Shown: positions 6,101-38,242 of the stretch, piece by piece
Position numbering within the stretch: position 1 is the first letter of the stretch
How the letters are laid out: each line of letters begins with the position of its first letter
IMG/VR virus record: IMGVR_UViG_3300013126_000003
Location: 1 to 58,987 of that record
DNA from: a virus
DNA: 58,987 nt
Direction: 5' to 3' (one strand)
Position numbers and translations under genes: made by a program
The notes under the pieces: generated by a model
What the model saw: only the letters and a program-made list of their open reading frames with translations
The model's database searches: none
What the model was told of the DNA's origin: nothing

Positions 6101-6965
6101 ACGCACGGGCGAGGTAACTTATCCATACGATCCGTATACCGACGCCATTTCTTACTCACCTCTTCCTAAGTCTAAGAAAGGACAACAGACAGACCTAGGT
6201 GATATCTTAACCATATTCGCCGGGTCGTTCACTCCTCTTGCAAAGACAGCAGACTTAGCAATCAAGAAGACATTTGAGGGACCTAAGAAAGAAGCGTCTG
6301 CTATCGAGAGGCAGAAGAACGAGATACTCTTACGATTGCCACTTGAGATACTTGGCAACATGGGTATGATACCTCTTTATAAAGACGTGAGAAGGGTTGT
6401 GATGGGTACAATATACGAGGACCTTCAGAAAGAGCAGCGTGCAAAAACAAAAGCACAGCAGGAGAATGAGTTCCAAAAGAGCAGACTTGGCATCTATCAG
6501 TCCAAGGAAGATATGAAGCGATACGACCCTGACTTGTACGAGAAAACATTCGGGCCATCGTCTCCTTACTACGAGGAGGACGAGCAACATCGCGCTGAAG
6601 AAAGAGCTAAGTCAAAAGCAAAGAGAGAAGCCAAGGACTTTCAGTTTGGTTACGAACAAGACCAAGTGATTGAGAAGGATGAGCTTACCCGAGCAGAGCT
6701 TAAGCGTTATTTCCCTCAAGAGTATGAGAAGAAGTATGGCAAGAGTGCGCCCAACTACAAAGAGATAGAGGCCGAGCGAAAGAAGAGTAAGGAAGAAAGA
6801 CTTAAGAGAAGACAGATGCTTGATAAGCAGTTTGGATACACATCTACCGAGAGAGGTTCTAGCACAAGAGGGACCGGCTCAACTCGTGGTGAGTCAACTA
6901 GAGGAGAAGGCTTAACTAGAGGAGGGTCGAGCACAAGAGGTGGGTCAAGTCTTAGAGGGAGGTGA
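1..6965 (+). CDS. Giant internal virion/polyvalent protein, C-terminal two thirds
   Basis: This is the 3' part of a 3396-residue protein whose start is at 55639; the frame is open from the first base and matches across the circular join. Visible parts, numbered on the whole protein: a zincin-type metal site HEVWH at about 1286-1290 inside LPHEVWHGIL; a Trp-rich segment around 1590-1660 (THWGKNWNGWCLIS); about 240 residues of short 'W..NG....E' repeats resembling YwqK/MORN-like repeats (about 1665-1905); long helical, Lys/Glu-rich stretches; a hydrophobic segment near 3040-3065; two tandem copies of a motif ending QFGY; and a C-terminal tail of TRG repeats (about 3356-3396). Size, mosaic layout and position after two internal virion proteins match phage polyvalent proteins that are ejected with the DNA. 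The peptidase activity is inferred only from HExxH. Confidence 0.9.
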   Translation, partial: PESERTEWQNGIIDTVESSLKETLAPAPAPTQSTASKVFAHVNDAVTELSDAFFDGLKDDEQYTFYTHTIDQVPPEFRNTAMEDKSAAKRSKVLGLPIGKRQGTIYKFTASGLKAKEMRGKIIESMSSKMGTNKAEIFANTMRSVANVFPDLKSVLFDTTEEMIDYANGISPSLGDGILGDEGGIIITKNGKPVVILINNQNSNPTTLPHEVWHGILLKAFGSNELLFAEFREAIKERLIKNGYQNIVDELDRFANNEEYIKSNQQAEEWLVQLGGLLTASGITRENITPKTRALLDDIKSVFNQVAEKLFGYPVFLEDATAEDVLDFMVAISERMAKGQDISSFFRDKESKAAAQGTQVSKQIGAKKKAEYAARLEKERPDIANQGTAQSIVDLVEKFGEENSQDGKGNPKLEKLAFHWIGRGNVKLPEDGYKIVEAEKLATKNKVDPFAFSNPIDIMEKFKGTIKEKPVDPDTVKEFSNKVTIPGTNVTVYNVEDTKEGQAAVRRIADTHWGKNWNGWCLISRTGNDNDLENGWKLWEENYNKTPKKIAFDNGKIIAFQASDTNQEKWWDKRDEPFDGVPIRENIEDGKYKVRSTSESGDVLYTKTYKITPGKEEQWNEDGVRIFEKINDKNGKAVYEQEWNDDASPKSKTYFNLGGANNVLKISFDEGTISDFNTDIHGGFETAENADLENYKIFNTDGSISAELSTEENEDDLTKTITITLFNDDGSVQNQAQKEIKYDESMDVSLGASVKITDENGLVRKKVKYQGSGRAGFYGKVKESSTWYTNGSKKSEVLNNTPQNYSETREWNENGQLVKEDVVPYDEQHFDYDYQKTGDGSGMFEEIQRIAKSYNVDIKGFAPAAVSEFQLEKELRPYGYSAKRSKAEPSGRQRGVYIVDPKGRFYNPFKIKAQRINLDAGNLEENVSSIPGYARMVDEANKVLEKSLRRGNSWDKSMENVMAYVTNSAVYERANDSQREQLVRNVRAEFGKREKSAPSVAKLFDTIKDIKMITMDEVELLKKQLRDLARGAKDAKIAWMSIAKEVAKQIKELVVAGKITNKQAASVITRLAKVNMFSQDSIDKFADYMTKVFNDANYDMKIEKARKKLPRALQNLKKKIGMSTALAPSLVRLFSINPSLIPDKVLERYLELVDMFGSSDTVLELDNVTTVTNDVNEILNAVSDEIDLADELALRLEEFEDRVYDEDGKLEYAKTIAKMLDADVISQEEAEVMRKYKNQILPQAEKSEATKEEVEEEKKGLVRAIKAMTISVELLPTRLERDLAKRLASLLKSDLLMKMSVNQLNNVIKLIDNINNGYAPRYAQILVEKLNSIERAKEDVVPSVETAKPLKFSNFVGKVKASFKGTTAALEMIRRTPLTFIGHIFGDFKTNKMFNGVFGMLASSQAAFDAEMNRVNKKLNAAHDAVAKSHKYSTNKTLESSFRMMAYMLQLEYDSNPGSDKVNTAASFIRATLKHIAKDKAKYKEKDAALLEDILDKYGKDVTDKKGNTVREIDMNKLHKSFNKAELEAIKTIREINDGLTEKAVYTASIIRGENISVLNNYVHLPVLHDYNPNERSTGIQNANAYNNSRRASSKAKTLEERSGDVSPINFDAFASAQRGAKFTLLDFHMTEAIRTARKTITEARAMMEDKGTFKGEKREILNAIDKALEEAIRNVLTNNFITDSFWESVANEISKQGYRAILASAERFTAELASNMSFVLLSDHASFVTGAKYSSVVMSPDAVHIMDNVRSKQTNRLFSGDALTGRLIDTSILGQASGVRSVVSRSAVADVSNIIYNHSLKKFKNGVEVVADTLISTPDKVVMRPVWFGAFANEFKAITGKEVDFKKIAENDEAYMNANKDAISRARDVADTKSMFTGASDNPFMGILKSAVHADDGTVKRAYKNFNNFMTRFTIYEYSVARQGIYAAMGNGSITKAQGVKLIAGVTARMTTYTLLTSLLGSAVLSMFGIEDEEEETKKTFLQKLSQALASSATSLIVGRDFGNAVKAFTNAGVEKINEEFFTALRKADVNERTGEVTYPYDPYTDAISYSPLPKSKKGQQTDLGDILTIFAGSFTPLAKTADLAIKKTFEGPKKEASAIERQKNEILLRLPLEILGNMGMIPLYKDVRRVVMGTIYEDLQKEQRAKTKAQQENEFQKSRLGIYQSKEDMKRYDPDLYEKTFGPSSPYYEEDEQHRAEERAKSKAKREAKDFQFGYEQDQVIEKDELTRAELKRYFPQEYEKKYGKSAPNYKEIEAERKKSKEERLKRRQMLDKQFGYTSTERGSSTRGTGSTRGESTRGEGLTRGGSSTRGGSSLRGR

Positions 6966-8054: not shown

Positions 8055-8290
8055 CCCTTGTAAACTTCTGTTTTGATTCCGTGGTTATTTAATTCCTTCA
8101 TGCGATACTTCTGCAGCTCAGACGGTTCTTTACCCGGCTGCTTTACCTCACTGAACAGCACGTTGCTATTCGGAGGTATAGCTAGCAGGTCGGGTATGCC
8201 ATTCTTGTTTGTACGAATGAGCTTTATCACATAGTACCCCTGAGCCTCAAGCTCTTTGATACGCTTACTCTGTATCTGTTGTTCCTTCAT
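8051..8290 (-). CDS. VRR-NUC domain nuclease
   Basis: A 79-residue stand-alone VRR-NUC protein, the length typical of phage versions. Conserved blocks are GIPDLLA (about residues 31-37) and FSEVKQPGKEPSELQ, giving the D...ExK catalytic arrangement, followed by the characteristic C-terminal 'L...G.KTEVY'. VRR-NUC enzymes are structure-specific nucleases, so a role in processing replication or recombination intermediates is likely. It is next to the DnaA-like gene in the same operon. Confidence 0.85.
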   Translation of the reverse strand: MKEQQIQSKRIKELEAQGYYVIKLIRTNKNGIPDLLAIPPNSNVLFSEVKQPGKEPSELQKYRMKELNNHGIKTEVYKG

Positions 8291-8549
8291 TGTACGCTAC
8301 TCTTAATCTGAACATGTGATTGAGTTGGTTCGCTTGCTTGAGAGCGGTGCTATTTGGCACGCGCCTGTTCTTTCTCAAATACTTTGCAGTCCATTCAATG
8401 AATGTATCCTGTTGTTTCTTAGTCATGGTATATAGGTCATACCAATTATCCTTTCGATCCTTGATATCGTTATACCCAAGGTCTATCTCAGCGATGATAA
8501 ACATCACATCAATAATCTCCTTTACCATATCAGCATTCGTCTTTCTCAT
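8265..8549 (-). CDS. Conserved small phage protein, 94 aa
   Basis: Function unknown. It contains WYDLYTMTKKQQDTFIEWTAKYL, a segment like one seen in many small uncharacterised phage proteins. It overlaps the VRR-NUC gene by 26 bases and is part of the leftward replication operon. Confidence 0.65.
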   Translation of the reverse strand: MRKTNADMVKEIIDVMFIIAEIDLGYNDIKDRKDNWYDLYTMTKKQQDTFIEWTAKYLRKNRRVPNSTALKQANQLNHMFRLRVAYNEGTTDTE

Positions 8550-18871: not shown

Positions 18872-19239
18872 AGTTGTTTTATAGTTAGTTCCTCACCTGT
18901 TAGAGCGAAGTAAAGGTTTTGAAGTTGGTGAACGTATTTGATTGAAATAATTGTTTCTAAATTATTGCTTTTTAGATGCACAAAATCATCATCATTATAG
19001 CTGACTAAAAGAAACAAATCAGTATCTAAAACCAAATCATCGCCATCCTTCTCAAACCCAAACTTCACCAACCATTCTTCTGTTAGTGGGATGGGTTTAA
19101 TCAAGTCATATTTGGCATGGATAAAATTTCCTTGCATCGTTTTTAGAGTACACACACCATCTGACATTAAATTCTCAATAGTGTTTAAGCAACCGTCATT
19201 TGAAACTAAGTTACCTATACGAAGTTCATTTGCTTTCAT
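18868..19239 (-). CDS. Conserved Bacteroidota phage protein, 123 aa
   Basis: Begins MKANELRIGNLV, continues with PIPLTEEWLVKFGFEK and ends HQLQNLYFALTGEEL. These three blocks define a common but uncharacterised family of Bacteroidota phages and prophages, so the start is secure. It is flanked by 4-base overlaps. Confidence 0.75.
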   Translation of the reverse strand: MKANELRIGNLVSNDGCLNTIENLMSDGVCTLKTMQGNFIHAKYDLIKPIPLTEEWLVKFGFEKDGDDLVLDTDLFLLVSYNDDDFVHLKSNNLETIISIKYVHQLQNLYFALTGEELTIKQL

Positions 19240-19616
19240 AGTTCAAAAAGGTATTTACCACAAGCTACTACTTGTCCTTGTGAGTTGGTTGTTGTTTGAG
19301 GTTCTTCTATTTTATTCATACCATCATCAGTTATTCCTATTACTTCAATTTCAAAGTCGAAGTGAGTAGGAAAAGTAAATACACCTTCTTCTAGTGGTGG
19401 AAGCAAAGGCACTCCTTCAAGGATTGGTGAGTTGTTGAGTGGCAAATGAAATAGTATCTCAAAACACTCATTGAGATATGAATTTTCTACCTCAGAAAAT
19501 CGTATCACATTTCGGTATCTCATCGAATAAACATTGAGATTGCTTGGCATATCTACTAGATGCTCTTTTTCTACAACAAGTAGATATTCGTTTGTTTTGA
19601 TTAGTTCTTTTTTCAT
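19236..19616 (-). CDS. Hypothetical protein, 126 aa
   Basis: Begins with a Lys-rich segment, then NEYLLVVEKEHLVDM, and ends with TNSQGQVVACGKYLFEL. It is the first gene of the AT-rich block; a copy of the recurrent palindrome lies 14 bases upstream of its start. Function unknown. Confidence 0.6.
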   Translation of the reverse strand: MKKELIKTNEYLLVVEKEHLVDMPSNLNVYSMRYRNVIRFSEVENSYLNECFEILFHLPLNNSPILEGVPLLPPLEEGVFTFPTHFDFEIEVIGITDDGMNKIEEPQTTTNSQGQVVACGKYLFEL

Positions 19617-19630
19617 GTCGGAAGTTTTAG

Positions 19631-19652
19631 AGAGTACGGTTGACCGTACTCT
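19631..19652. repeat. Recurrent palindrome, copy 1
   Basis: Core AGTACGGTTGACCGTACT (19633-19650) with 10-base arms in all. It sits between the stop at 19657 and the start at 19616 of two minus-strand genes. Confidence 0.9.
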
Positions 19653-19656
19653 TTGG

Positions 19657-20097
19657 TTAAAGTTGTTTGCGTTCTACCTTGTATATCTCATACCCTCTGC
19701 TCTTAAGGAACTCGATAGCGTCACGCTCACTCATGGTGCTAGGTTCAGGTATGAATTGTGCATTGGCTTCCTCAGCCGCAGCCACCACAGACGCCTTGTC
19801 CATCTCCTCTCTCAGCTTGTTGCGCTTTTTGCGCTGCTCGGCATACCTCTTGACGCGCTCTTTGTGTGAGGCAATAATTCGATCGACCATGTCCGATGTT
19901 GGCATAGACACGATCCAATTACACACGTCGGTGGTTACCGATGCAACGTACCCCTCATGTCTTAAGGTGGTGATGATAGATGCATCGACCTTGTGGTTCT
20001 TGATTATTGATGATACAACAAAGGTCTTTTGATGAGCGCAGTCGTCGATGAATGCGCTGTACTTCTTGCGGGTCTTGTCTTTAATTGTGTTTACCAT
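19657..20097 (-). CDS. Hypothetical basic protein, 146 aa
   Basis: N-terminal VNTIKDKTRKKYSAFIDD and a long, strongly basic, helical middle (KERVKRYAEQRKKRNKLREE) suggest nucleic-acid binding. The C-terminus ends with the phage-like EFLKSRGYEIYKVERK. It overlaps the upstream gene by 7 bases and is followed directly by palindrome copy 1. Confidence 0.6.
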   Translation of the reverse strand: MVNTIKDKTRKKYSAFIDDCAHQKTFVVSSIIKNHKVDASIITTLRHEGYVASVTTDVCNWIVSMPTSDMVDRIIASHKERVKRYAEQRKKRNKLREEMDKASVVAAAEEANAQFIPEPSTMSERDAIEFLKSRGYEIYKVERKQL

Positions 20098-20585
20098 GAC
20101 TGAAAGATTTGTGGTTTATTTAATATGTGTGGTTCAAGTTCGTCGACAGCACTTTCGATAAAGTCGTACTCAGACTCATACTCCTCGCCATTAAATACAT
20201 ACATACCGGTGTCCTCGTTGTACCTAAAGTTTATACAGCTGCCGTCGTACATCTTGATACTAGCAGGGCGTATCGGATTGAACACAGCCTTGCCATATAG
20301 CCCCATGCCTGACTCATCAAACCGATGCTCATACTCAACCTTAAAGCGTCTGCCGATAAGCATGATAGTAGATAGAGCAGGTGACCACTTGGATAAGAAT
20401 TGATAGTCACCTTTGTCCCATCCTTGTATATCGAAAAGATAGGGTGCATTGTACCTTTCACATGCCAACCACTCAGGGCGAACCCCCTCTGTAGATAGCA
20501 TCATCTTGCTGAACAGCGCATCGACCTTGTCTAGCGCAGAGGGACTTCCCTTGAAAGTCACATTGTTGTTGCACCAATTAGGCAT
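20091..20585 (-). CDS. YubB/Api92-like ferredoxin-fold protein
   Basis: 164 residues starting MPNWCNNNVTFKGS, the signature start of the Api92-like/YubB (ferredoxin-like domain) family found on phages and plasmids. It also has the conserved DIQGWDKG...WSPALS and EYEHRFDESGMGLYG segments. Its biochemical function is unknown. It overlaps the next gene by 7 bases. Confidence 0.8.
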   Translation of the reverse strand: MPNWCNNNVTFKGSPSALDKVDALFSKMMLSTEGVRPEWLACERYNAPYLFDIQGWDKGDYQFLSKWSPALSTIMLIGRRFKVEYEHRFDESGMGLYGKAVFNPIRPASIKMYDGSCINFRYNEDTGMYVFNGEEYESEYDFIESAVDELEPHILNKPQIFQSW

Positions 20586-21012
20586 TTCTTTGCGTGTTAT
20601 TGTCGTTCAACATTTGCTTGATGTCATTGAATAATCGCTCGTCATCGAAACGAACTGCATCAAAAAAGTCATCGCCGTCAATCTCAATAGTGGCCGTAAC
20701 ATCCAACCGCCCCGACCTTGTCTCGCAAGTATCGTAGTGGACGGTGGCAAACTCTCCATATGTACCTCCGCAGTTCAATGAGTGTACCCTAGCATGGTTC
20801 ATAGCTATGGTTACGATGCGCTTAATGACGTCGTCAGGTATCACATCTACCGTGAGTACTTGCTCATCGGGCAGTACGCTGACGCTGTTAGATAGGTGGT
20901 TAATAATACCAAGCAAGTCATCGCTAGTGAATATCGAGCCCGTAAAAATTGATTGAGGTCTTTGAATATTATCCTTAACCTCGTTAATGATTTGTAATAC
21001 CTGTGCTTTCAT
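20578..21012 (-). CDS. Hypothetical protein, 144 aa
   Basis: An alpha/beta protein with RIVTIAMNHARVHSLNCGG and a C-terminal half that looks like a beta sandwich (CETRSGRLDVTATIEIDGDDFFDAV). Function unknown. Confidence 0.6.
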   Translation of the reverse strand: MKAQVLQIINEVKDNIQRPQSIFTGSIFTSDDLLGIINHLSNSVSVLPDEQVLTVDVIPDDVIKRIVTIAMNHARVHSLNCGGTYGEFATVHYDTCETRSGRLDVTATIEIDGDDFFDAVRFDDERLFNDIKQMLNDNNTQRNA

Positions 21013-21301
21013 TTCTGTTTATTCTAATTGGTTCCATTCTGTGATACACCTCTTGCCAATGATTGTGTCCTTGGCTTGTGCGAGACCATATGATTCTCGC
21101 ATCTACAACGTCTCTCCAATCCCGTAGCATTTTTACTCCGCCATTAAAGAAGACTTGCTCTTCTAAAAATCTTTCTCTCAAGATTATAGCTGATGCCTTA
21201 GAGAGTCCTTGGTCTTCACGGACTTTGATTACGAAAGACCTTTTCCACTCCCGCCACTCTTCAGGTGTCATCCATGCTTCAAAAAATTCATATCGTGTCA
21301 T
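20984..21301 (-). CDS. Hypothetical Trp-rich protein, 105 aa
   Basis: Begins MTRYEFFEAWMTPEEWREW and is rich in Trp and Arg. It overlaps the following gene start by 29 bases; a later start is possible but there is no good internal Met. Palindrome copy 2 lies about 30 bases upstream of its start. Function unknown. Confidence 0.55.
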   Translation of the reverse strand: MTRYEFFEAWMTPEEWREWKRSFVIKVREDQGLSKASAIILRERFLEEQVFFNGGVKMLRDWRDVVDARIIWSRTSQGHNHWQEVYHRMEPIRINRNESTGITNH

Positions 21302-21329
21302 GTGGGTAGTGTTAAATGGTGAGAGAAAA

Positions 21330-21351
21330 AGAGTACGGTTGACCGTACTCT
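21330..21351. repeat. Recurrent palindrome, copy 2
   Basis: Identical core AGTACGGTTGACCGTACT (21332-21349). The outer arm reaches the stop codon of the amidoligase gene. Confidence 0.9.
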
Positions 21352-22603
21352 ATTTGATATCAGCAGATTCGTCAGTAAGGTCAACGTCATTGTACAATGA
21401 GCTATACTCAACGAACAACTCAACCTTACGCATCATCTTCTCCTTGCCTACCACCGACTCAATGTGCTTGTGTAACTCAGACGTTGAGTCGCAAAGCATA
21501 CGCAGTACATCGCGCTCACTTGCACCGAAGTTTCGCATGATGATACGCAACAGCTCAACACGCCACAATAAGTTCTTCACGTTCTTCACGGCAGGGAAGA
21601 TGCGGAACTCCAAGGTATCGCCACGAACGTAGATGCTCGAGCGTTTGTCTCGGTTAAGGTACTCATGCTTCTTCTTAGCGAACGAATAGCCCACGTCAAG
21701 ACGCTTGACGTACAAAGAGTAAAGCACAGGGAAAAATCCCGACACGCCCTCGAATATCTCCTCGACCGTGTACTTACTTGATGCAACGTGGATGTGACCA
21801 CCGCATCGGTTGCTGAACGTGCCGTTGATGTGTTGCTTAAGCAACTCGCTACTCTCAATGTCATCTTCGTGTAGCGTACCGAACAGGTCATACACCGGAC
21901 TGATGAGCTCATACCCGCTGTCGCTATCCAAACTAGCATCTGTCTCTTTAGTCCAACCATGCGGTAGGTCTCTAAAGCTACAGCTTATTCTCGCATCGAG
22001 GTCTTCCTTCTCAACTTCAAACCCCATAGTAAACTCAGTACCCTCGGGTGTTCTCCAACCACGCCCACCACCACGGTGATACGAAGCAAGATGGTCGTCA
22101 GACGCAGAGACTGATGACCGTGATGGATAATACGGAGGGTTTGGCGAAGTTTCTTCATCGTCATCGTCCTCGTCATACGGCGCGTCGTCGCAGTGACGCC
22201 ACTCGTCGACCGAGTCATAGTAATACACGTCGCGGTGATTGGCAACACGCTCACTGATGTAGTACATATCATTCGTCTCACAACGAACATAGTCCTCATC
22301 ATCGGTTATGAAATACCCCTCATCGCCTCCGCCGTTGAGGACACCCCATGTGCAGTCATCTCGGTAGGCATACCCACTACCCTCGACCCACACAATATCT
22401 CGAGACTCCTCCTCATGCTCATGGAATAAATCACCGCAGATTGTTGCATGAATCTCGTCTGAGTCGTCATCTCTGTGGCAGACCTCGCCCGATGCTAACA
22501 CTTGAATATCAGAGTCGCCGTTACGATACCACTCACCTGAGTGAATACCGATTGTGAATTGAGAGCACTCATCCATGTAAGGAAGAACTAATTTTTGTGA
22601 CAT
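21350..22603 (-). CDS. Putative amidoligase (COOH-NH2 ligase, glutamine-synthetase-like)
   Basis: 417 residues. The C-terminal half carries the amidoligase-family motifs GFEVE (194-198), a KETDASLDSDSGYELISP strand pair, CGGHIHV (267-273) and LEFRIFPAV (about 347-355). These supply the Glu/His metal and ATP ligands of the glutamine-synthetase-like fold. The N-terminal 180 residues are unusually acidic with repeated Cys/His pairs (VCHRDDD, CETND, WRHCDD), perhaps zinc-binding or substrate-binding modules. The family is predicted to form amide bonds on peptides or cell-wall compounds with ammonia from a glutaminase, and the adjacent gene encodes one. The substrate is unknown. Confidence 0.82.
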   Translation of the reverse strand: MSQKLVLPYMDECSQFTIGIHSGEWYRNGDSDIQVLASGEVCHRDDDSDEIHATICGDLFHEHEEESRDIVWVEGSGYAYRDDCTWGVLNGGGDEGYFITDDEDYVRCETNDMYYISERVANHRDVYYYDSVDEWRHCDDAPYDEDDDDEETSPNPPYYPSRSSVSASDDHLASYHRGGGRGWRTPEGTEFTMGFEVEKEDLDARISCSFRDLPHGWTKETDASLDSDSGYELISPVYDLFGTLHEDDIESSELLKQHINGTFSNRCGGHIHVASSKYTVEEIFEGVSGFFPVLYSLYVKRLDVGYSFAKKKHEYLNRDKRSSIYVRGDTLEFRIFPAVKNVKNLLWRVELLRIIMRNFGASERDVLRMLCDSTSELHKHIESVVGKEKMMRKVELFVEYSSLYNDVDLTDESADIK

Positions 22604-22632
22604 ATGAATTGAATTAAAGTGGTTGAAAATTT

Positions 22633-22654
22633 AGAGTACGGTTGACCGTACTTT
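22633..22654. repeat. Recurrent palindrome, copy 3
   Basis: Core AGTACGGTTGACCGTACT (22635-22652) directly after the stop of the amidotransferase gene and 31 bases before the amidoligase start. Confidence 0.9.
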
Positions 22655-23529
22655 TAGTTGGCGACTCCATCGTACATTGCATCACAACATACTCTGCACA
22701 GGGGTGCTTGATACGTCTCATCGTATACACACAGCTTGTCCTCAAGACACGATTCGCATCGTTCGTAATTCGTGTCACGAGAATAGTTGAAGTCGGGTTT
22801 ATCAAAGGGGTTCCCGCTCTCCTCTCCGTAGTCCGTGAAGTCATCCGACTCGGTAAAATCCTCACGCTTGTCATACGTTCGGGTCTTGGGATTCCACTTA
22901 TACTTCCTCTCCCAATCGGTATCTTCCCAATTGTCATCTCTGCTATATCTAAAGCTCGGCATAGACCTGCCACCAACGTCAAGGTATCGGCCAATTTTAT
23001 AGGTGGTATTGCTGAACCAACAGCCCATGTCCCACACACCTGCCTCCTCGTTAATGATGTACGCATCATTGTCTGTGTTGAGGAATAGCAGTTTACTGCC
23101 ACCGATGTATCCCGACACGAGCTCATAGATGGCGTCGTTATGTATCCAATCAACAGGTAGCTTCTTGAGTACAAGTTCGTTGAACAAATTGGTATCGCTC
23201 TTGTCCTTGTCTCGACCGATAGAGGATATCATGCCGTTATGCACGAAGCCCCACTTGTCATTGGTAATAAATGGATGGCAGTTCTCAAGATTGATACGGC
23301 CATGTGTCCCGATACGGAAGTGGATGACCACCTGACTCTCCGCATGGTCTTTGCGCACACTTAGGTAGTGGTTGTAGAACTTGTCAAAGTTCTTCATCTC
23401 CTTGTGGGCGGTTAGCTTCTTGTCTTTTAGGTACAAGAGTCCCGCTCCGTCCTTGTTGTTGTCCCAACACGTCTTGAGTATGCTTTTCTCAAGCGTCACG
23501 TCGTTAGGGTTTAGAATGGCAATGCACAT
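22654..23529 (-). CDS. Class II glutamine amidotransferase with C-terminal zinc site
   Basis: 291 residues. The protein starts MCIAI: after Met removal Cys2 is the N-terminal nucleophile of the Ntn fold. Other family blocks are DGAGLLY, HFRIGTHG, NCHPF and FVHNG. The enzyme domain spans about 1-190. The C-terminus adds a charged linker and a probable zinc knuckle (CESC...CRVCC). Such enzymes release ammonia from glutamine; the natural user is the amidoligase encoded 50 bases downstream. A well-formed promoter precedes the gene, so the two are probably one transcription unit with the palindrome between them. Confidence 0.88.
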   Translation of the reverse strand: MCIAILNPNDVTLEKSILKTCWDNNKDGAGLLYLKDKKLTAHKEMKNFDKFYNHYLSVRKDHAESQVVIHFRIGTHGRINLENCHPFITNDKWGFVHNGMISSIGRDKDKSDTNLFNELVLKKLPVDWIHNDAIYELVSGYIGGSKLLFLNTDNDAYIINEEAGVWDMGCWFSNTTYKIGRYLDVGGRSMPSFRYSRDDNWEDTDWERKYKWNPKTRTYDKREDFTESDDFTDYGEESGNPFDKPDFNYSRDTNYERCESCLEDKLCVYDETYQAPLCRVCCDAMYDGVAN

Positions 23530-23573
23530 AGTGAAATAGATTTAAGTTTAACACGATTTTTTAATTGACTCTG

Positions 23574-23605
23574 CAAAGATACGACATTACTTTGCAAAAA
23601 GCAAA
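23574..23605 (-). promoter_or_regulatory. Promoter of the amidotransferase-amidoligase unit
   Basis: Minus strand: TTTG (23605-23602), a 20-base spacer, then TATCTTTG (23581-23574). This matches the Bacteroidota -33/-7 consensus exactly. It lies 45 bases before the start codon. Confidence 0.88.
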
Positions 23606-23610
23606 TAAAG

Positions 23611-23883
23611 CTACTTTAGAACTTTCTTCGCTTTGGCAAGTAGGCTGTCTATATCCCCGCCTTTTAGTGCGCTTTTGATTTGCGATCGTAGCACATCTGA
23701 CACGACAGAGGTAAGGTCTGCATCGCACGGCTTCCCGTCTATTTGATACTCACCACTTGGCTCATCCAATTGCAAGTCACTCACTTTTATCCACCTACCT
23801 TCACGGTCTTTCTTGTACACCTCTGCTCCATAGGCAAAGGCTATAATAAGCGGTAGCATTTTCTTACACTCGTGTCTTGTCAT
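23611..23883 (-). CDS. Hypothetical protein, 90 aa
   Basis: Begins MTRHECKKMLPLIIAFAYG and continues with YKKDREGRWIKVSDL and EYQIDGKP; this looks like a small phage protein with a beta-rich middle. Palindrome copy 4 lies 25 bases upstream. Function unknown. Confidence 0.6.
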   Translation of the reverse strand: MTRHECKKMLPLIIAFAYGAEVYKKDREGRWIKVSDLQLDEPSGEYQIDGKPCDADLTSVVSDVLRSQIKSALKGGDIDSLLAKAKKVLK

Positions 23884-23908
23884 TTGTTTAGGTATTGGTT
23901 AATTGAAA

Positions 23909-23926
23909 AGTATGGTTGACCGTACT
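23909..23926. repeat. Recurrent palindrome, copy 4
   Basis: AGTATGGTTGACCGTACT, one change from the common core; the left arm T gives a G-U pair if the RNA folds. It is adjacent to the stop codon at 23927. Confidence 0.88.
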
Positions 23927-24148
23927 CTAGTTATTGTTGTTCTTGCTCTCAAGCGTGTTGACAACAGCAAGGCATAGCGACACTCCCGCACCGACAATGA
24001 ATACACCGACGGAAAAGAAGTTTTGCGCCACCTCAAGATAGTTAACCCAAAAGGTTAAACTGATTACGGCGCAAAGGAATGAATAGGTGAGTGCAAATAG
24101 CACTGCATAGGTGCTAAGCACCACGAAAGGTTTAAGGGTTTTGTGCAT
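23927..24148 (-). CDS. Small membrane protein with two TM segments, 73 aa
   Basis: Two hydrophobic stretches (about residues 8-33 and 43-65) with a short loop WVNYLEVAQNFF. It may modify the host envelope. No family recognised; four bases separate it from the preceding gene. Confidence 0.6.
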   Translation of the reverse strand: MHKTLKPFVVLSTYAVLFALTYSFLCAVISLTFWVNYLEVAQNFFSVGVFIVGAGVSLCLAVVNTLESKNNNN

Positions 24149-24152
24149 ATAA

Positions 24153-24392
24153 TTATGGTTTTAGTTGAATCATTGAACAGCTTTGACCTTTGTAGATAAG
24201 CACCACAGTGCTATCGTCAATGGTATACTTGTATAGGCTACCTCCTCGCTCTTCATGCAGTAGCTCCATGACTACCCTACTCTTGACTACGTCAGGTTCT
24301 TTGGATGTGCAATCAGTTGAGATTGTCTCGATACCCCAAATCATTACCCCTATGGTTAGGACGATGTCCCAAGACGGCATAATTTTTCTCAT
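24153..24392 (-). CDS. Small exported or membrane-anchored protein, 79 aa
   Basis: Positively charged start followed by a hydrophobic segment (SWDIVLTIGVMIWGIETIS), then a Cys (STDC) and a beta-rich domain with KYTIDDSTVVLIYKG. It could be inserted in the inner membrane by a signal anchor. Function unknown. Confidence 0.55.
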   Translation of the reverse strand: MRKIMPSWDIVLTIGVMIWGIETISTDCTSKEPDVVKSRVVMELLHEERGGSLYKYTIDDSTVVLIYKGQSCSMIQLKP

Positions 24393-24416
24393 GTTGATAT
24401 TGAATTTAAGTTTTAC

Positions 24417-24707
24417 TTAGCAGTCCCCATTGCAATAGCCTCGCTCCTCACAATCCCCGTATCCCATCTCGCACTTGAACTCGTTGTGGGTGTAGTTGAG
24501 TTCAAAGTCTAGTTCTTGTTGCACCTCTATATCAATTTGCTCTTGCCAAAACTTAGGTAGGTCGGTGTATTTAACCACGCTCTCATTGCCCTTGCAGTCA
24601 TCAATAACCTCTTGTTTGTCGGTATAGCGAACTATCTTCCCGCTCCACTCAAATTGTAGGACGTGGTCATTCGCCTCATCGTAAAGTACATATATGTTAT
24701 CGTTCAT
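24417..24707 (-). CDS. Cys-rich hypothetical protein, 96 aa
   Basis: Acidic protein ending with four cysteines in CEMGYGDCEERGYCNGDC, a likely metal-binding tail. Its leader contains promoter 24786-24817 and palindrome copy 5, so it heads its own transcription unit. Function unknown. Confidence 0.65.
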   Translation of the reverse strand: MNDNIYVLYDEANDHVLQFEWSGKIVRYTDKQEVIDDCKGNESVVKYTDLPKFWQEQIDIEVQQELDFELNYTHNEFKCEMGYGDCEERGYCNGDC

Positions 24708-24723
24708 GTTGTGAAAGGTTTTG

Positions 24724-24741
24724 AGTATGGTTGACCGTACT
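24724..24741. repeat. Recurrent palindrome, copy 5
   Basis: AGTATGGTTGACCGTACT in the 5' leader, downstream of a clear promoter and 16 bases before the start codon at 24707. There is no gene end immediately upstream, so it is not simply a terminator. Confidence 0.9.
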
Positions 24742-24785
24742 CTTGGTTAGTGCCGTCATACTATACTTTGGTTGGTAAGAAAGTG

Positions 24786-24817
24786 CAAAGATACAACAAA
24801 GTTATATCGAATGCAAA
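24786..24817 (-). promoter_or_regulatory. Bacteroidota-type promoter
   Basis: Minus strand: TTTG (24817-24814), a 20-base spacer, TATCTTTG (24793-24786). It reads into palindrome copy 5 and the Cys-rich gene. Confidence 0.88.
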
Positions 24818-24844
24818 TAAGTTCTTTGCAACAATTGTAAACGA

Positions 24845-25042
24845 CTACCACTCAAGTTCACCGCACTCACATAGCATGTCGTTGTACTTGAATACGCCTG
24901 TCTCTAGGTAGGCCATGACTTCGCCCTTACAAGCCGACTCATAGACCTTACCTTCGGTAGTCCTAAGCGTATAGAGGCCGTCATCGGTTGGTTGAATAGT
25001 GGTGTTCACTAGTAAGTGAATGAGGATGTACATTGTGTTCAT
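24845..25042 (-). CDS. Hypothetical protein, 65 aa
   Basis: Small protein with a beta-rich middle (DDGLYTLRTTEGKVYES) and C-terminal Cys pair (CECGELEW). Palindrome copy 6 lies 27 bases upstream of its start. No promoter element was seen in its leader. Function unknown. Confidence 0.6.
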   Translation of the reverse strand: MNTMYILIHLLVNTTIQPTDDGLYTLRTTEGKVYESACKGEVMAYLETGVFKYNDMLCECGELEW

Positions 25043-25069
25043 ATATACGAGGGGTTTTGATTAGCGAAG

Positions 25070-25087
25070 AGTACGGTTGACCGTACT
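25070..25087. repeat. Recurrent palindrome, copy 6
   Basis: Core AGTACGGTTGACCGTACT in the leader of the 65-residue protein gene, downstream of a terminator. Confidence 0.9.
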
Positions 25088-25103
25088 TTTGAAATTGGGT
25101 TAG

Positions 25104-25124
25104 TATTAGTGTTACACACTAATA
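25104..25124. repeat. Perfect inverted repeat TATTAGTGT / ACACTAATA
   Basis: Nine-base arms around TAC, between the terminator of the 255-residue protein gene and palindrome copy 6. It could be an operator or an RNA hairpin. Confidence 0.7.
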
Positions 25125-25156
25125 AAAACAAAATACGCCCACCATATAGGTGAGCG
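25122..25156 (-). terminator. Rho-independent terminator
   Basis: Minus strand: 8-bp stem CGCTCACC / GGTGGGCG around TATAT (one G-T pair), followed by TATTTTGTTTTT. It ends the transcript of the 255-residue protein gene 30 bases after its stop. Confidence 0.85.
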
Positions 25157-25185
25157 CATCTTGCTTCGAGGGGTGAATTGGTATC

Positions 25186-25953
25186 TTAAGATACCATATC
25201 CATAGTCACTTCTTCTTCGATACCGCCTTGTAGGATATCAAGCATAGCTTGTTTTTTAGCGTTTTTCTTCGCCTTATCCACAGAGGCATTCGCCTTCACA
25301 TCCACCTTAGCTTGTGTCTCAGCTTTCAGCTGCTTAAGCGACTTTTGCAAGTAAGCAATTGCTTTAGCAATATCATCCTTGGTAGCGGTTGTTTTCACCT
25401 CACCTTTGTCGGTTATCCTTAAGGATACATTGTTCATCTTCATGGCTTCGCCATTAAACGTGAATGTAACGATAGGCTTCGCCTTTGTATCCACGGCAAC
25501 CTCATTAGCTTCGCTAACGCCACCCTCTTCGTTACCCTCATCCTCATTTAATCCTAAAGGATTAGCGGTTGAATTGTCGTGTTTCTTGATGAATTTCTCG
25601 AAATTCTCAAGAGAATAACTTGCCGCACCTTGTAACGCATCGCATTGTGAGACGAACTCTTCGGCAATTTGTGGCAAACGCTCTGTAGCTTTAGCTACAC
25701 GAATGTAAAGGCCGTATTGCTGTTTGCTAAGGCCGTAGGCCATTTTCACCACCTCTTCCTGTGTGAGTGCGGTGTCTTTCAAGAAGGTTTTACCTTCTTC
25801 GCTTTTAAGCCATTTGTAACCTTTCAAAAGAAAGGTAGCCATTTCCACGGACTTGGCGAATGACTTGCCTTGTGCGTTTTTCACGGCGTTTGCTAGTGTG
25901 TTCACTTGAGCGGTGTGCAACATCTTGTGTGCAAGAGACGAAAGATTTTTCAT
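25186..25953 (-). CDS. Promoter-proximal leftward protein, 255 aa, unknown function
   Basis: First gene left of the divergent hub, with its own promoter and terminator, so probably early and strongly expressed. Residues 1-125 are helical, with LLKGYKWLKSEEGKTFL and LSKQQYGLYIRVAKA; an acidic Asn/Glu linker follows; then a beta segment (PIVTFTFNGEAMKMNNVSLRI) and a Lys-rich helical tail. I do not recognise the family. The basic tail and position would suit a DNA-binding or host-takeover factor, which is inference. Confidence 0.75.
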   Translation of the reverse strand: MKNLSSLAHKMLHTAQVNTLANAVKNAQGKSFAKSVEMATFLLKGYKWLKSEEGKTFLKDTALTQEEVVKMAYGLSKQQYGLYIRVAKATERLPQIAEEFVSQCDALQGAASYSLENFEKFIKKHDNSTANPLGLNEDEGNEEGGVSEANEVAVDTKAKPIVTFTFNGEAMKMNNVSLRITDKGEVKTTATKDDIAKAIAYLQKSLKQLKAETQAKVDVKANASVDKAKKNAKKQAMLDILQGGIEEEVTMDMVS

Positions 25954-26001
25954 ATGATAAAAGGTGTTAAATTTTGTCGTATCATTTGTTCAACGACTTT
26001 G

Positions 26002-26034
26002 CAATACTACGACAATTCTCTACACAAAGTCAAA
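26002..26034 (-). promoter_or_regulatory. Leftward early promoter
   Basis: Minus strand: TTTG (26034-26031), a 21-base spacer, then TAGTATTG (26009-26002), one mismatch from TAnnTTTG. It is the promoter of the 255-residue protein gene, 49 bases before its start. Confidence 0.65.
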
Positions 26035-26114
26035 TTTTTTTTTTGCACCTTCCAAAAACCTCAGTGTTTATGCGGGTTTCAGGGCTGATTTTTTTTTGGC
26101 TAGGTAACGAAATG

Positions 26115-26132
26115 AGTATGGTTGGCCGTACT
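26115..26132. repeat. Recurrent palindrome, copy 7
   Basis: AGTATGGTTGGCCGTACT, the most divergent copy. It lies upstream of the leftward promoter at the edge of the GC-rich hub and is about 161 bases from the nearest start codon. Confidence 0.85.
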
Positions 26133-26410
26133 CTGACAAGGTCGGAAAGCCTCGTGATGCACTCGTAATGTGCTCATGATGAGCGTGATGCGAGGGTGAT
26201 GCGGGCTATGCGCGAGCGATGTGCGCGTGTGTGCGCGCGGATCGCGTGGGTATCGGGCGACGTGGTGCGGTGCGTGGCCATGGGCTAGGGGAAAAACGCC
26301 AAAAATCCTCGGGCGCGCGGGCGATTTGCACACCCCCCTGCTTGTTACACATGCGTTTTCGGCGCGGGGGTGACCGTCGCAGAGCGGGGTATAGTCCCAA
26401 CACTACTATC
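26133..26410. other. GC-rich non-coding divergent hub (candidate origin or packaging site)
   Basis: Together with 26035-26114 this is the main part of the 481-base gene-free gap 25954-26434. It is strikingly GC-rich in an AT-leaning genome. It starts with degenerate units of about 11 bases (GTGATGC, GTGATGCG, TATGCGCG, GATGTGCG) from 26154 to about 26275 and ends with complementary arms CACCCCC (26331-26337 region) and GGGGGTG (26366-26372). Transcription diverges on both sides. Open frames here on both strands are Arg/Pro-rich shadows. Position and composition suit an origin or packaging signal; this is inferred. Confidence 0.5.
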
Positions 26411-26422
26411 ATCTAAACTTCA

Positions 26423-35719: not shown

Positions 35720-36018
35720 AGATGGACCCAAAGAAATTAAAGCTCAAGATTATTGATGCCGGGTATAAAGCCGTAGAGCATCTCATTGAGGTAGCTGAAG
35801 AAAAGATTGTTCAGAAGATTATTGGAGAAGAGGGAGAGGTTTTCGAGTTAGCCGCTGACCGGCTCAAGAATGCCGCAGCCACTAAAAAAATAGCTATCTT
35901 TGATGCATTCGAGATACTTAATCGTATAGAGGCAGAGAAAGAATCTCTTGAATCTATAGAAAATGGACCAAGTAAAATCGACACAAAACAAGGGTTTGCT
36001 GAAAGAAGATCAAAATAA
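35716..36018 (+). CDS. Helical protein upstream of TerL, possible small terminase
   Basis: 100 residues, nearly all helix (EHLIEVAEEKIVQKIIGEEG, RLKNAAATKKIAIFDAFEIL). Position directly before, and overlapping by 56 bases, the terminase large subunit suggests a terminase small subunit, but no DNA-binding motif is clear. Confidence 0.5.
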   Translation: MKMDPKKLKLKIIDAGYKAVEHLIEVAEEKIVQKIIGEEGEVFELAADRLKNAAATKKIAIFDAFEILNRIEAEKESLESIENGPSKIDTKQGFAERRSK

Positions 36019-38242
36019 TCTATACAGGGTACTCAGTGGATTCATACCGAAAGCTACATTAGCAAAAAACAACGCAAAGAAGGCTTGGGAGTATGGGTAC
36101 AACGAGGACTATGACATGATTGTCATTTCTAAGAACGGCACCATAGGTGAAGTCTACAACATAGAGGGGATAAACATAGCTCTCCCTGAATTATCTAGCG
36201 ATTGCTACAAGAGAAGGGAGACTAAAGAAGATCAGTATTGGGAGAGGCAAGAGTTGCCGCAACCATTGTCAAAAATCAAAACCATATTCCAATGGAATGA
36301 TACTCCATCTGAGTTTAAGAGCAGGTGGGTTGACTACATTGAGAAACAATTTGACTATCGCGAGGAAGGCTTTTGGTTTATGAATAATGGCAAGCCTACT
36401 TACGTCACGGGGTCTCATTGGATGTACCTGCAGTGGTCTAGTATTGATGTAGGCTATCCTGATTTTCGTGAAGCAAATAGAATCTTTTGGATATTTTGGG
36501 AGGCATGTAAAGCAGATGATAGATGCTTTGGTATGAACTACCTTAAGATACGCCGATCGGGATTCTCGTTCATGTCGTCATCGGAGTGTATCAACATAGG
36601 AACGCTCGTTAGAAATTCTCGAATAGGTATATTGTCAAAGACCGGAGACGATGCTAAGAAGATGTTTATTAACAAGGTTGTTCCTATTAACAGCCACCTT
36701 CCTTTTTTCTTCAAACCTGTTATGGATGGAATGGATAAGCCGAAAACTGAATTGGCGTATCGCGTTCCTGCTTCAAAGATTACGAAGAAGAACATGTTTG
36801 AAACTTCTGAGGAAGTGATGGAGGGTCTTGATACCACAATAGATTGGAAGAACACAGAAAGCAACTCATACGATGGAGAAAAACTAAAGCTACTTGTTCA
36901 TGATGAGAGTGGTAAATGGGTAAAGCCAAACAATATTAAAGAGAATTGGCGCGTAACAAAGACATGCTTACGACTAGGTCGAAAGATTATAGGAAAGTGT
37001 ATGATGGGGTCTACCTCTAATGCGTTGGCTAAAGGGGGACAGAACTTCAAAGATATGTTTGAAGACTCTCGCATTTCTACTCGAAATGCAAACGGACAAA
37101 CCAAGAGCGGGCTATACGCCTTGTTCATTCCAATGGAATGGAACATGGAAGGGTTCATTGATATTTACGGAATGCCGGTATTCAGAAAGCCCAAGACAAA
37201 AGTTAGAGGCATTGACGGTGGTTGGATCACCAACGGCGCCATTGACTTTTGGGAAGCTGAGGTTGAAGGATTAAAGAATGATGCTGACGCTCTTAATGAA
37301 TTTTACAGGCAGTATCCACGCACTGAGTCTCACGCATTCCGCGATGAGAGTAAGCAAGCATTGTTTAATCTAACTAAGATTTATCAGCAGATTGACTACA
37401 ACGACACGCTCATTAGAGATAGAGTTATTACCCGTGGAAACTTTATGTGGAGGGACGGGATTAAAGATACGTCAGTCATATTTAGCCCCGACAGAAATGG
37501 TAGGTTCTTCGTGAGTTGGACGCCCAACAAAAACCTTCAGAACAATGTGCATGTACGCAATGGGATAAAATACCCGGGCAATGAACATATCGGTTCGTTC
37601 GGGTGTGACCCTTACGATATCTCAGCTGTAGTGGATGGGCGTGGATCGAACGGCTCTCTTCATGGTATGACTAAATTCCATATGGACGAGGCGCCGGTAA
37701 ATGAGTTTTTCCTAGAGTATATCGCTCGACCGCAAACGGCAGAGATATTTTTCGAGGACGTGCTAATGGCTTGTGTGTTTTACGGAATGCCGGTGCTCGC
37801 GGAAAACAATAAGCCACGATTACTATATCATTTCAAAAACAGAGGGTACAGAGGGTTTGCCATGAACAGGCCCGACAAGGTGTATGCGAAGCTGTCTAAT
37901 ACAGAAAAAGAACTTGGGGGTATACCTAATACCTCTGAAGATATTAAGCAGTCTCACGCGTCTGCAATCGAGTCGTATGTAGAAAAATACATAGGCTTCG
38001 ATACCTTGGGTACATACAGAGAGCCTGACGTTGTAGGCAACATGCCATTCACAAGAACACTAGAAGATTGGGCAAAGTTCGATATAAATAACCGGACAAA
38101 GTTTGACGCCTCTATTAGCTCAGGGTTGGCTATCATGGCTAATCAAAAACATATGTATGTGCCTGAGAAAAAAGAAAGGAAAATAAGTGTTAACTTTGCG
38201 AGATATAGCAACAAAGGAACTACAAGCGAAATAATTAGATGA
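35963..38242 (+). CDS. terL: Terminase large subunit
   Basis: 759 residues. The ATPase half has an atypical Walker A, KIRRSGFSFMSS (about 195-206), and a Walker B-type LLVHDESGKW (about 309-318). GKCMMGSTSNALAKGG is the coupling segment and the nuclease half starts at SFGCDPYDIS (about 547). This is the terminase form seen in podoviruses of Bacteroidota, including crAss-like phages. It pumps DNA into the prohead and cuts concatemers. The canonical GKS/T is absent, which is usual in this lineage. Confidence 0.92.
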   Translation: MDQVKSTQNKGLLKEDQNNLYRVLSGFIPKATLAKNNAKKAWEYGYNEDYDMIVISKNGTIGEVYNIEGINIALPELSSDCYKRRETKEDQYWERQELPQPLSKIKTIFQWNDTPSEFKSRWVDYIEKQFDYREEGFWFMNNGKPTYVTGSHWMYLQWSSIDVGYPDFREANRIFWIFWEACKADDRCFGMNYLKIRRSGFSFMSSSECINIGTLVRNSRIGILSKTGDDAKKMFINKVVPINSHLPFFFKPVMDGMDKPKTELAYRVPASKITKKNMFETSEEVMEGLDTTIDWKNTESNSYDGEKLKLLVHDESGKWVKPNNIKENWRVTKTCLRLGRKIIGKCMMGSTSNALAKGGQNFKDMFEDSRISTRNANGQTKSGLYALFIPMEWNMEGFIDIYGMPVFRKPKTKVRGIDGGWITNGAIDFWEAEVEGLKNDADALNEFYRQYPRTESHAFRDESKQALFNLTKIYQQIDYNDTLIRDRVITRGNFMWRDGIKDTSVIFSPDRNGRFFVSWTPNKNLQNNVHVRNGIKYPGNEHIGSFGCDPYDISAVVDGRGSNGSLHGMTKFHMDEAPVNEFFLEYIARPQTAEIFFEDVLMACVFYGMPVLAENNKPRLLYHFKNRGYRGFAMNRPDKVYAKLSNTEKELGGIPNTSEDIKQSHASAIESYVEKYIGFDTLGTYREPDVVGNMPFTRTLEDWAKFDINNRTKFDASISSGLAIMANQKHMYVPEKKERKISVNFARYSNKGTTSEIIR

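Follow-up and report, generated by a model that had tools for sequence, protein, structure and literature searches.

Palindrome copies in the leftward early arm

The window analysed here covers the full 58,987 bp of a virus record and comes from a tailed phage of Bacteroidetes type. Among annotated genomes its closest relative is the 60,850-bp podovirus MW202828.1 (complete genome), with which it has in common modules for GroEL/GroES, a single-strand-annealing protein, an exonuclease and a primase (77% identity between the two primases). Copies of a palindrome, AGTACGGTTGACCGTACT, were found at cistron junctions within just 6.5 kb of the leftward early arm, together with the gene for a 255-residue protein. 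The features of this region are as follows.

19633–19650, minus strand: palindrome copy 1, perfect; 6 nt past the stop of 19657–20097 and 16 nt before the ATG of 19236–19616
21332–21349, minus strand: palindrome copy 2, perfect; abuts the stop of 21350–22603, 30 nt before the ATG of 20984–21301
22635–22652, minus strand: palindrome copy 3, perfect; 1 nt past the stop of 22654–23529, 31 nt before the ATG of 21350–22603
23574–23605, minus strand: Bacteroidetes-type promoter (consensus match) before 22654–23529, in the sole gap of at least 40 nt without a palindrome
23909–23926, minus strand: palindrome copy 4, one mismatch (C.A on the mRNA strand); abuts the stop of 23927–24148, 25 nt before the ATG of 23611–23883
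24724–24741, minus strand: palindrome copy 5, one mismatch; between the promoter at 24817–24786 and the ATG of 24417–24707 (16 nt)
24786–24817, minus strand: Bacteroidetes-type promoter, TTTG-N20-TATCTTTG, TTTGCATTCGATATAACTTTGTTGTATCTTTG, upstream of copy 5 (consensus match, unmapped)
25070–25087, minus strand: palindrome copy 6, perfect; 98 nt past the stop of the 255-residue protein gene, 27 nt before the ATG of 24845–25042
25186–25953, minus strand: gene for the 255-residue protein, candidate cognate regulator of a new family (from profiling, HMM and predicted structures), with a putative HTH-like N-domain and a small beta-beta-beta-alpha C-domain
25998–26035, minus strand: tentative weak promoter-like stretch upstream of the 255-residue protein gene, ~80 bp downstream of copy 7 (by eye; the strict pattern is not matched)
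26115–26132, minus strand: palindrome copy 7, two mismatches; in a divergent spacer, 161 nt upstream of the 255-residue protein gene

The original prediction listed seven copies in a single orientation with a TG centre, and a plus-strand search of the whole record returned exactly these: seven matches to AGTACGGTTGACCGTACT with 0–2 mismatches, against a chance expectation of 0.02 (mean of 100 dinucleotide shuffles), and no further copy in the 58,987 bp even when 4 mismatches were allowed. Copies at 19633, 21332, 22635 and 25070 are perfect, those at 23909 and 24724 (AGTATGG...) carry one mismatch and that at 26115 carries two. The centre reads TG on the plus strand, and CA on the leftward mRNA strand, in all seven. 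Six copies precede an ATG, as predicted, by 16, 30, 31, 25, 16 and 27 nt; measured from the 18-mer, the range is 16–31 nt and not the 14–31 nt given previously. Four of these six lie 0–6 nt past the upstream stop codon. Among the genes at 19.2–25.9 kb, six of the seven gaps of at least 40 nt contain a palindrome and the remaining one has a strong promoter. The proposed location of copy 5 between a promoter and its gene was borne out by the clear Bacteroidetes-type promoter at 24817–24786. Shine-Dalgarno sequences were absent at the window palindromes, and neither Rfam matches (including hammerhead RF00008) nor tRNAs were detected within the window.

Palindrome variants and the 255-residue protein family

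Relatives were gathered via the shared primase (450 candidate stretches, 80 kept), and 29 genomes were scanned whole or nearly whole for palindromes. All palindromes of the relatives match GTnnnnTYRAnnnnAC. Most primase-sharing relatives carry GTGTCTTYRAAGACAC; MW202828.1 has 14 copies of GTGTCGTTAACGACAC, another relative has GTGCACTCGAGTGCAC, and a GTCTCTT.. and a GTCTCCT.. palindrome were found in one relative each. Palindrome-bearing relatives contain 4–16 copies, scattered over both genome arms, of one of the variants GTCT, CTCT, CTCC, GTCG, ACGG or GCAC, over a near-zero background. Among the 29 genomes, each palindrome-bearing one uses a single variant and has practically no other perfect palindromes of that form; ten genomes have none. 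The exact window palindrome had no match in IMG/VR outside the window. Searching with the 16-bp core and a free centre gave 35 unrelated stretches (the 255-residue family in none, more than one copy in only four), and the amidoligase and amidotransferase neighbours used as bait recovered just two further phages, which had parS-like sites in place of the palindrome. The same kind of system occurs across many related Bacteroidetes-type phages, the window array being one instance.

The palindromes had been suggested to be operators for one regulator, with the 255-residue protein and a winged-helix protein among the listed partners, and a search of relatives for both motif and regulator had been proposed. 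This search yielded the analogous palindromes above and, in an all-against-all ORF comparison over the 29 genomes, ranked the 255-residue family first: by BLAST it was present in 16 of 18 palindrome phages and in none of the 10 others. An HMM profile added G002, a phage whose GCAC palindrome had been noticed before its gene. With G002 and a degenerate-site phage (G027) included, the association was 18/19 versus 0/10 (Fisher p ~5e-7, in a sample of mostly fragmentary records whose related phages are non-independent). One phage with nine sites (G024) has no gene of the family in its 55.5-kb record, one without sites (G022) gave a marginal 40-residue match to the profile, and one without the gene (G017) has five decayed sites with 2 mismatches each. 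A protein-based search detected 68 further viral loci of the family, nearly all with sites, and no match in bacterial genomes. At these loci a palindrome usually precedes the gene by 190–275 nt, and a second one often follows its stop codon directly. The winged-helix protein was ruled out as partner, being near-universal (34 of 37 records, with or without the palindrome). Gene profiling thus picks out the 255-residue family as the probable cognate partner of the palindromes, and a phage-specific site array with a single cognate protein family is well supported.

The 255-residue family had no Pfam, PHROG or PDB relative. Foldseek gave nothing meaningful with the full model; with the N-domain it gave no PDB match and only four viral protein relatives, all unnamed. 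By AF2 the N-terminal 140 residues were predicted as an all-helical domain (pLDDT 93), in which helices 76–84 and 88–98 are spaced as in a helix-turn-helix, suggesting that the protein may be a DNA-binding HTH protein. The second helix of this predicted pair changes with the palindrome variant. The HTH-like segment is FGWQKSFFYK in GTCT phages, YGWNKSYLFK with CTCT, FGWEKAQLHR with CTCC, YGLSKAQGHK with GTCG and YGLSKQQYGLYIR with ACGG. In protein pairs 20–40% identical elsewhere, helix identity was 0.49–0.71 for the same site versus 0.24–0.43 for different sites; this difference was gone in pairs 40–50% identical.

Palindromes were also found inside protein genes of relatives. In the helicase gene of GTCT phages, AGT GTC TTT GAA GAC AC (SVFEDT) forms a complete site, and in the CTCT phage the same position reads AGT CTC TTT GAA GAG AC (SLFEET), which matches its own palindrome; in the window and in palindrome-less phages the residues there are mostly unrelated. 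In the terminase gene, GTCT phages have TGT CTT CAA AGA CAC (CLQRH) and the CTCT phage TCT CTT CAA AGA GAC (SLQRD), most other phages having KDCYKRS-like residues. The homologue of the terminase site in the window is at 36197, within 35963–38242. Since the residues of both proteins track each phage's own palindrome, the nucleotide sequence is the selected thing; and as this holds in two genes and two frames, spacer gene conversion or descent alone is an unlikely cause. The in-gene sites point to a trans-acting reader of the palindrome.

Such a reader could also be a ParB-HTH-like protein acting on parS-like centromeric or genome-organising sites. The dispersal of the relatives' 16-bp palindromes over both arms and their conserved in-gene positions are consistent with this, as is a sub-threshold SopB_HTH match of one family member (E=0.22). 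However, a ParB/CTPase domain was not found in the family by Pfam, no ParA partner was noted in an unsystematic look, and the window sites are restricted to cistron junctions of the early arm. We regard a centromere-like role as improbable.

DNA or RNA as the recognised form

Deduplication left 379 copies, of which 212 lie behind a stop codon on the transcribed strand. The original prediction held that most copies lack a U tract and are not simple terminators. Both points agreed with the data: in the window only copy 2 has a U-rich tail, and a U-tract follows just 10 of the 212 post-stop copies (1 of 62 start-adjacent). Although the hairpins abut stop codons and U-tracts occur at a few copies between convergent genes, these counts, the phage-specific conservation at sequence level and the in-gene copies make intrinsic termination very improbable indeed.

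Alternatively, the 255-residue protein would bind a UCAA-loop hairpin in mRNA, bordering the 3′ side of one cistron and 16–31 nt ahead of the next start, and thereby control translation or decay. Stem variants are compensated, and the mRNA loop is UCAA-like in 7/7 of the window copies as well as in most of the 124 asymmetric post-stop copies of relatives (97 CA versus 27 TG). However, single mismatches in the core were 18 G.U versus 13 A.C (p 0.47), showing no RNA-pairing bias. The mismatch test was able to see RNA selection, because the same set gave 63 G.U versus 6 A.C (p 4e-13) in stem extensions adjacent to ribozymes, a result that itself fits an RNA function. Outside the core, start-adjacent copies, the class of the window, lacked an RNA signal (21 G.U versus 33 A.C). 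The window variants at 23909, 24724 and 26115 show C.A mismatches in the mRNA, and the opposite strand gives the better fold. Coding sites share the same half-site preferences as start-adjacent ones, including A at −1. Ahead of the regulator gene, the conserved copy lies upstream of a promoter-like element and its centre is only slightly biased (19 CA versus 14 TG), and the predicted protein is HTH-like in appearance. DNA is favoured over RNA because the core mismatches have no G.U bias; together with the C.A variants and the half-site preferences, they favour duplex DNA as the form recognised. The earlier suggestion of 5′ RNA hairpins is weakened in its pure form, and binding of the protein to mRNA appears unlikely. 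The centre orientation, 46 CA versus 4 TG beside ribozymes and 29 versus 14 in start-adjacent copies (p 0.03), is biased, which would not be expected if a dimer bound a symmetric DNA site, and is a hint that function depends on direction or on RNA.

The ribozymes are type III hammerheads, 1–3 of which lie between genes of the relatives. About 65 deduplicated copies (~1/3 of the post-stop set) were found directly 5′ of them, where the palindromes cap RNA stems; RF00008 matches beside the palindromes had E values of 4.5e-8 to 9e-6. A further 15 copies of relatives are near mini-tRNA-like elements. Among the scanned genomes, only palindrome-bearing ones had a hammerhead on the early-arm strand. 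After hammerhead cleavage the upstream mRNA would have the palindrome hairpin as its 3′ end, and an added RNA role is likely for the ribozyme-capping copies of relatives. The idea of a switch based on competition between the palindrome stem and hammerhead stem III was dropped: in cases read by eye the stems are mostly adjacent and non-overlapping. Hammerheads flanking single genes in prophages have been reported (PMC3088659); no report of their coupling to regulator sites was found in the literature searched.

These copies bear on a third proposal, that the palindromes are processing sites. Here the palindrome would form the 3′ end of an upstream mRNA, protecting it after a cut by a ribozyme, an RNase P-like enzyme or another nuclease. 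The hammerhead- and mini-tRNA-associated copies and the RNA-selected extended stems agree with this in relatives, and the confinement of early-arm-strand ribozymes to palindrome-bearing genomes among those scanned would fit as well, but processing was not seen in the window, which has no Rfam match or tRNA. The window has no hammerhead, so the primary role of its copies cannot lie in ribozyme coupling. Many copies of relatives, in-gene ones included, also have no processing element, and a processing hairpin would need neither phage-wide sequence identity nor a dedicated protein family; as a general explanation this is hardly probable. A dual use is possible, though doubtful: the palindrome would be both an operator for the new regulator and an RNA-stem cap ending the upstream mRNA, coupled to hammerheads or mini-tRNA elements in many lineages, so that the regulator could tie the control of transcription to mRNA ends made by ribozymes. 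If so, the window would represent a lineage in which the operator array was kept and ribozymes are absent.

A proposed stoperator-like regulator-operator system

The palindromes are probably DNA operators, and, judging from the sequences, the 255-residue protein is best read as a new regulator family for the operator array. Our preferred account, which we consider reasonably likely, is that the regulator acts as a dimer on double-stranded DNA in a stoperator-like early shut-off with autoregulation. The dimer probably binds with the HTH-like segments reading two half-sites, GTACGGTY. The regulator gene heads the leftward early arm; one site precedes it, and the others lie at the junctions of the cistrons that follow. 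As the regulator accumulated it would occupy the sites and hinder RNA polymerase within the early transcription unit, and through the upstream site it would control its own gene. That bound sites block elongation, so that the early genes are shut down, is a conjecture.

In the L5 gp71 system of Cluster A mycobacteriophages, the stoperators are asymmetric 13-mers, to which a monomer with two DNA-binding domains binds (PMC9283540, PMC6550527). Orientation bias is a hallmark of stoperators (PMC6550527), and reversal of a site abolishes elongation repression (PMC9283540). As with L5, many sites lie in short intergenic gaps, mostly in a single orientation (7/7 in the window, 97 CA:27 TG in relatives), the genome-specific motif covaries with the regulator, and a site is upstream of the regulator gene. 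Unlike those of L5, the sites of the window type are palindromes of 16–18 bp, the 255-residue family is unrelated to gp71, sites also occur in coding sequence with adapted residues, and hammerhead-associated copies exist in relatives. By this analogy the array is best read as working most like stoperators, yet outside that family, with a palindromic site and an unrelated protein.

The array resembles the SAS and ESAS of Cluster K mycobacteriophages in having repeated elements 5′ of start codons in a non-structural arm. SAS, however, lie 3–7 bp from the start and have a Shine-Dalgarno core, and ESAS are 17-bp inverted repeats with a 4–13 bp spacer and a consensus that varies by subcluster (PMC3203893), whereas the window has a compact palindrome 16–31 nt from the start, without a Shine-Dalgarno sequence and with its partner gene identified. 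The 1–3 hammerheads between genes of relatives are like prophage hammerhead arrays (PMC3088659); they differ in that an RNA stem tipped by the operator palindrome precedes most of them, and the window has no hammerhead.

KorB of plasmid RK2 and ParB-parS provide examples of a global regulator with many palindromic operators, the half-sites being read by an HTH. Unlike these, the window system has no ParB/CTPase domain match, has another site sequence and is located in a phage early arm.

What was an anonymous repeat can now be put to the test as a regulator-operator pair in which both partners come in dozens of natural variants. The phages concerned are a widespread Bacteroidetes-type group whose transcription control is little known. 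The natural variants are a ready-made specificity code. In the helicase and terminase, residues that track the phage's own palindrome show with rare clarity how protein sequence can yield to a regulatory site, and the hammerhead-coupled copies provide a route to asking what phage hammerheads are for.

RNA elements beside the palindromes of other phages

A related-phage locus, L340, carried hammerhead ribozymes of type III (RF00008) as an array in intergenic positions, and L366, L356 and L373 showed the same pattern. In these arrays, the candidate operator palindrome lay a few nucleotides 5′ of most hammerhead starts, and extended RNA-paired stems accompanied the ribozymes. Mini tRNA-like elements, directly 3′ of palindromes in four viral loci, consisted of an acceptor stem and a T arm with TTCGA, without an anticodon arm. 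ARAGORN made no call for these four elements, which are possibly RNase P substrates. A recurrent structured RNA was built of an outer stem, an inner stem and a loop with AGCC..AAGG; it may serve as an operator for autogenous control or represent a ribozyme of unknown type. It was flanked by a palindrome on one side and a small conserved gene on the other, with the primase gene shortly downstream.

L340:5554-5609, 6468-6523, 8284-8338, hammerhead ribozymes
L082:1378-1440, mini tRNA-like element
L075:5384-5445, mini tRNA-like element
L032:1624-1690, mini tRNA-like element
L244:13745-13830, mini tRNA-like element
L012:9404-9450, structured RNA
L016:9319-9370, structured RNA
L060:8000-8050, structured RNA

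Other palindrome families and decayed sites

Two phages (L007 and L008) sharing the amidotransferase with the window phage carried canonical parS-like sites, TGTTYCACGTGRAACA, in largely noncoding DNA, interspersed with a second palindrome family, TTATTTAGAANN..TCTAAATAA. Each also had one palindrome, TGTACGTYTRAACGTACA, which shares its general form with the window palindrome, upstream of a 140-aa gene that follows recT.

L007:1373-2418, four parS-like sites
L008:5736-6812, three parS-like sites
L007:11559-11576, TGTACGTYTRAACGTACA
L008:16558-16575, TGTACGTYTRAACGTACA

Several imperfect copies of a palindrome, TACGGTTAACCGT, occurred in L089, L110 and L119, which are unrelated viral contigs. 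The regulator homologue was absent from all three, and this palindrome may represent another operator family. In genome G017 (the record behind L036), the palindrome sites were decayed, with two mismatches in each, and no regulator gene was detectable.

The putative regulator gene and its upstream spacer

The mRNA of the putative regulator (25186-25953, minus strand) contained 6.5 short perfect hairpins per kb, compared with 0-3.3 in other genes, and folded 4 standard deviations better than shuffles. Upstream of copy 7 of the palindrome was a divergent spacer:

26133-26420, GC-rich, low-complexity spacer

C-rich CTGCC-repeat spacers were seen at the equivalent place in some relatives. These spacers, including that of the window, are possibly an origin or a leader.
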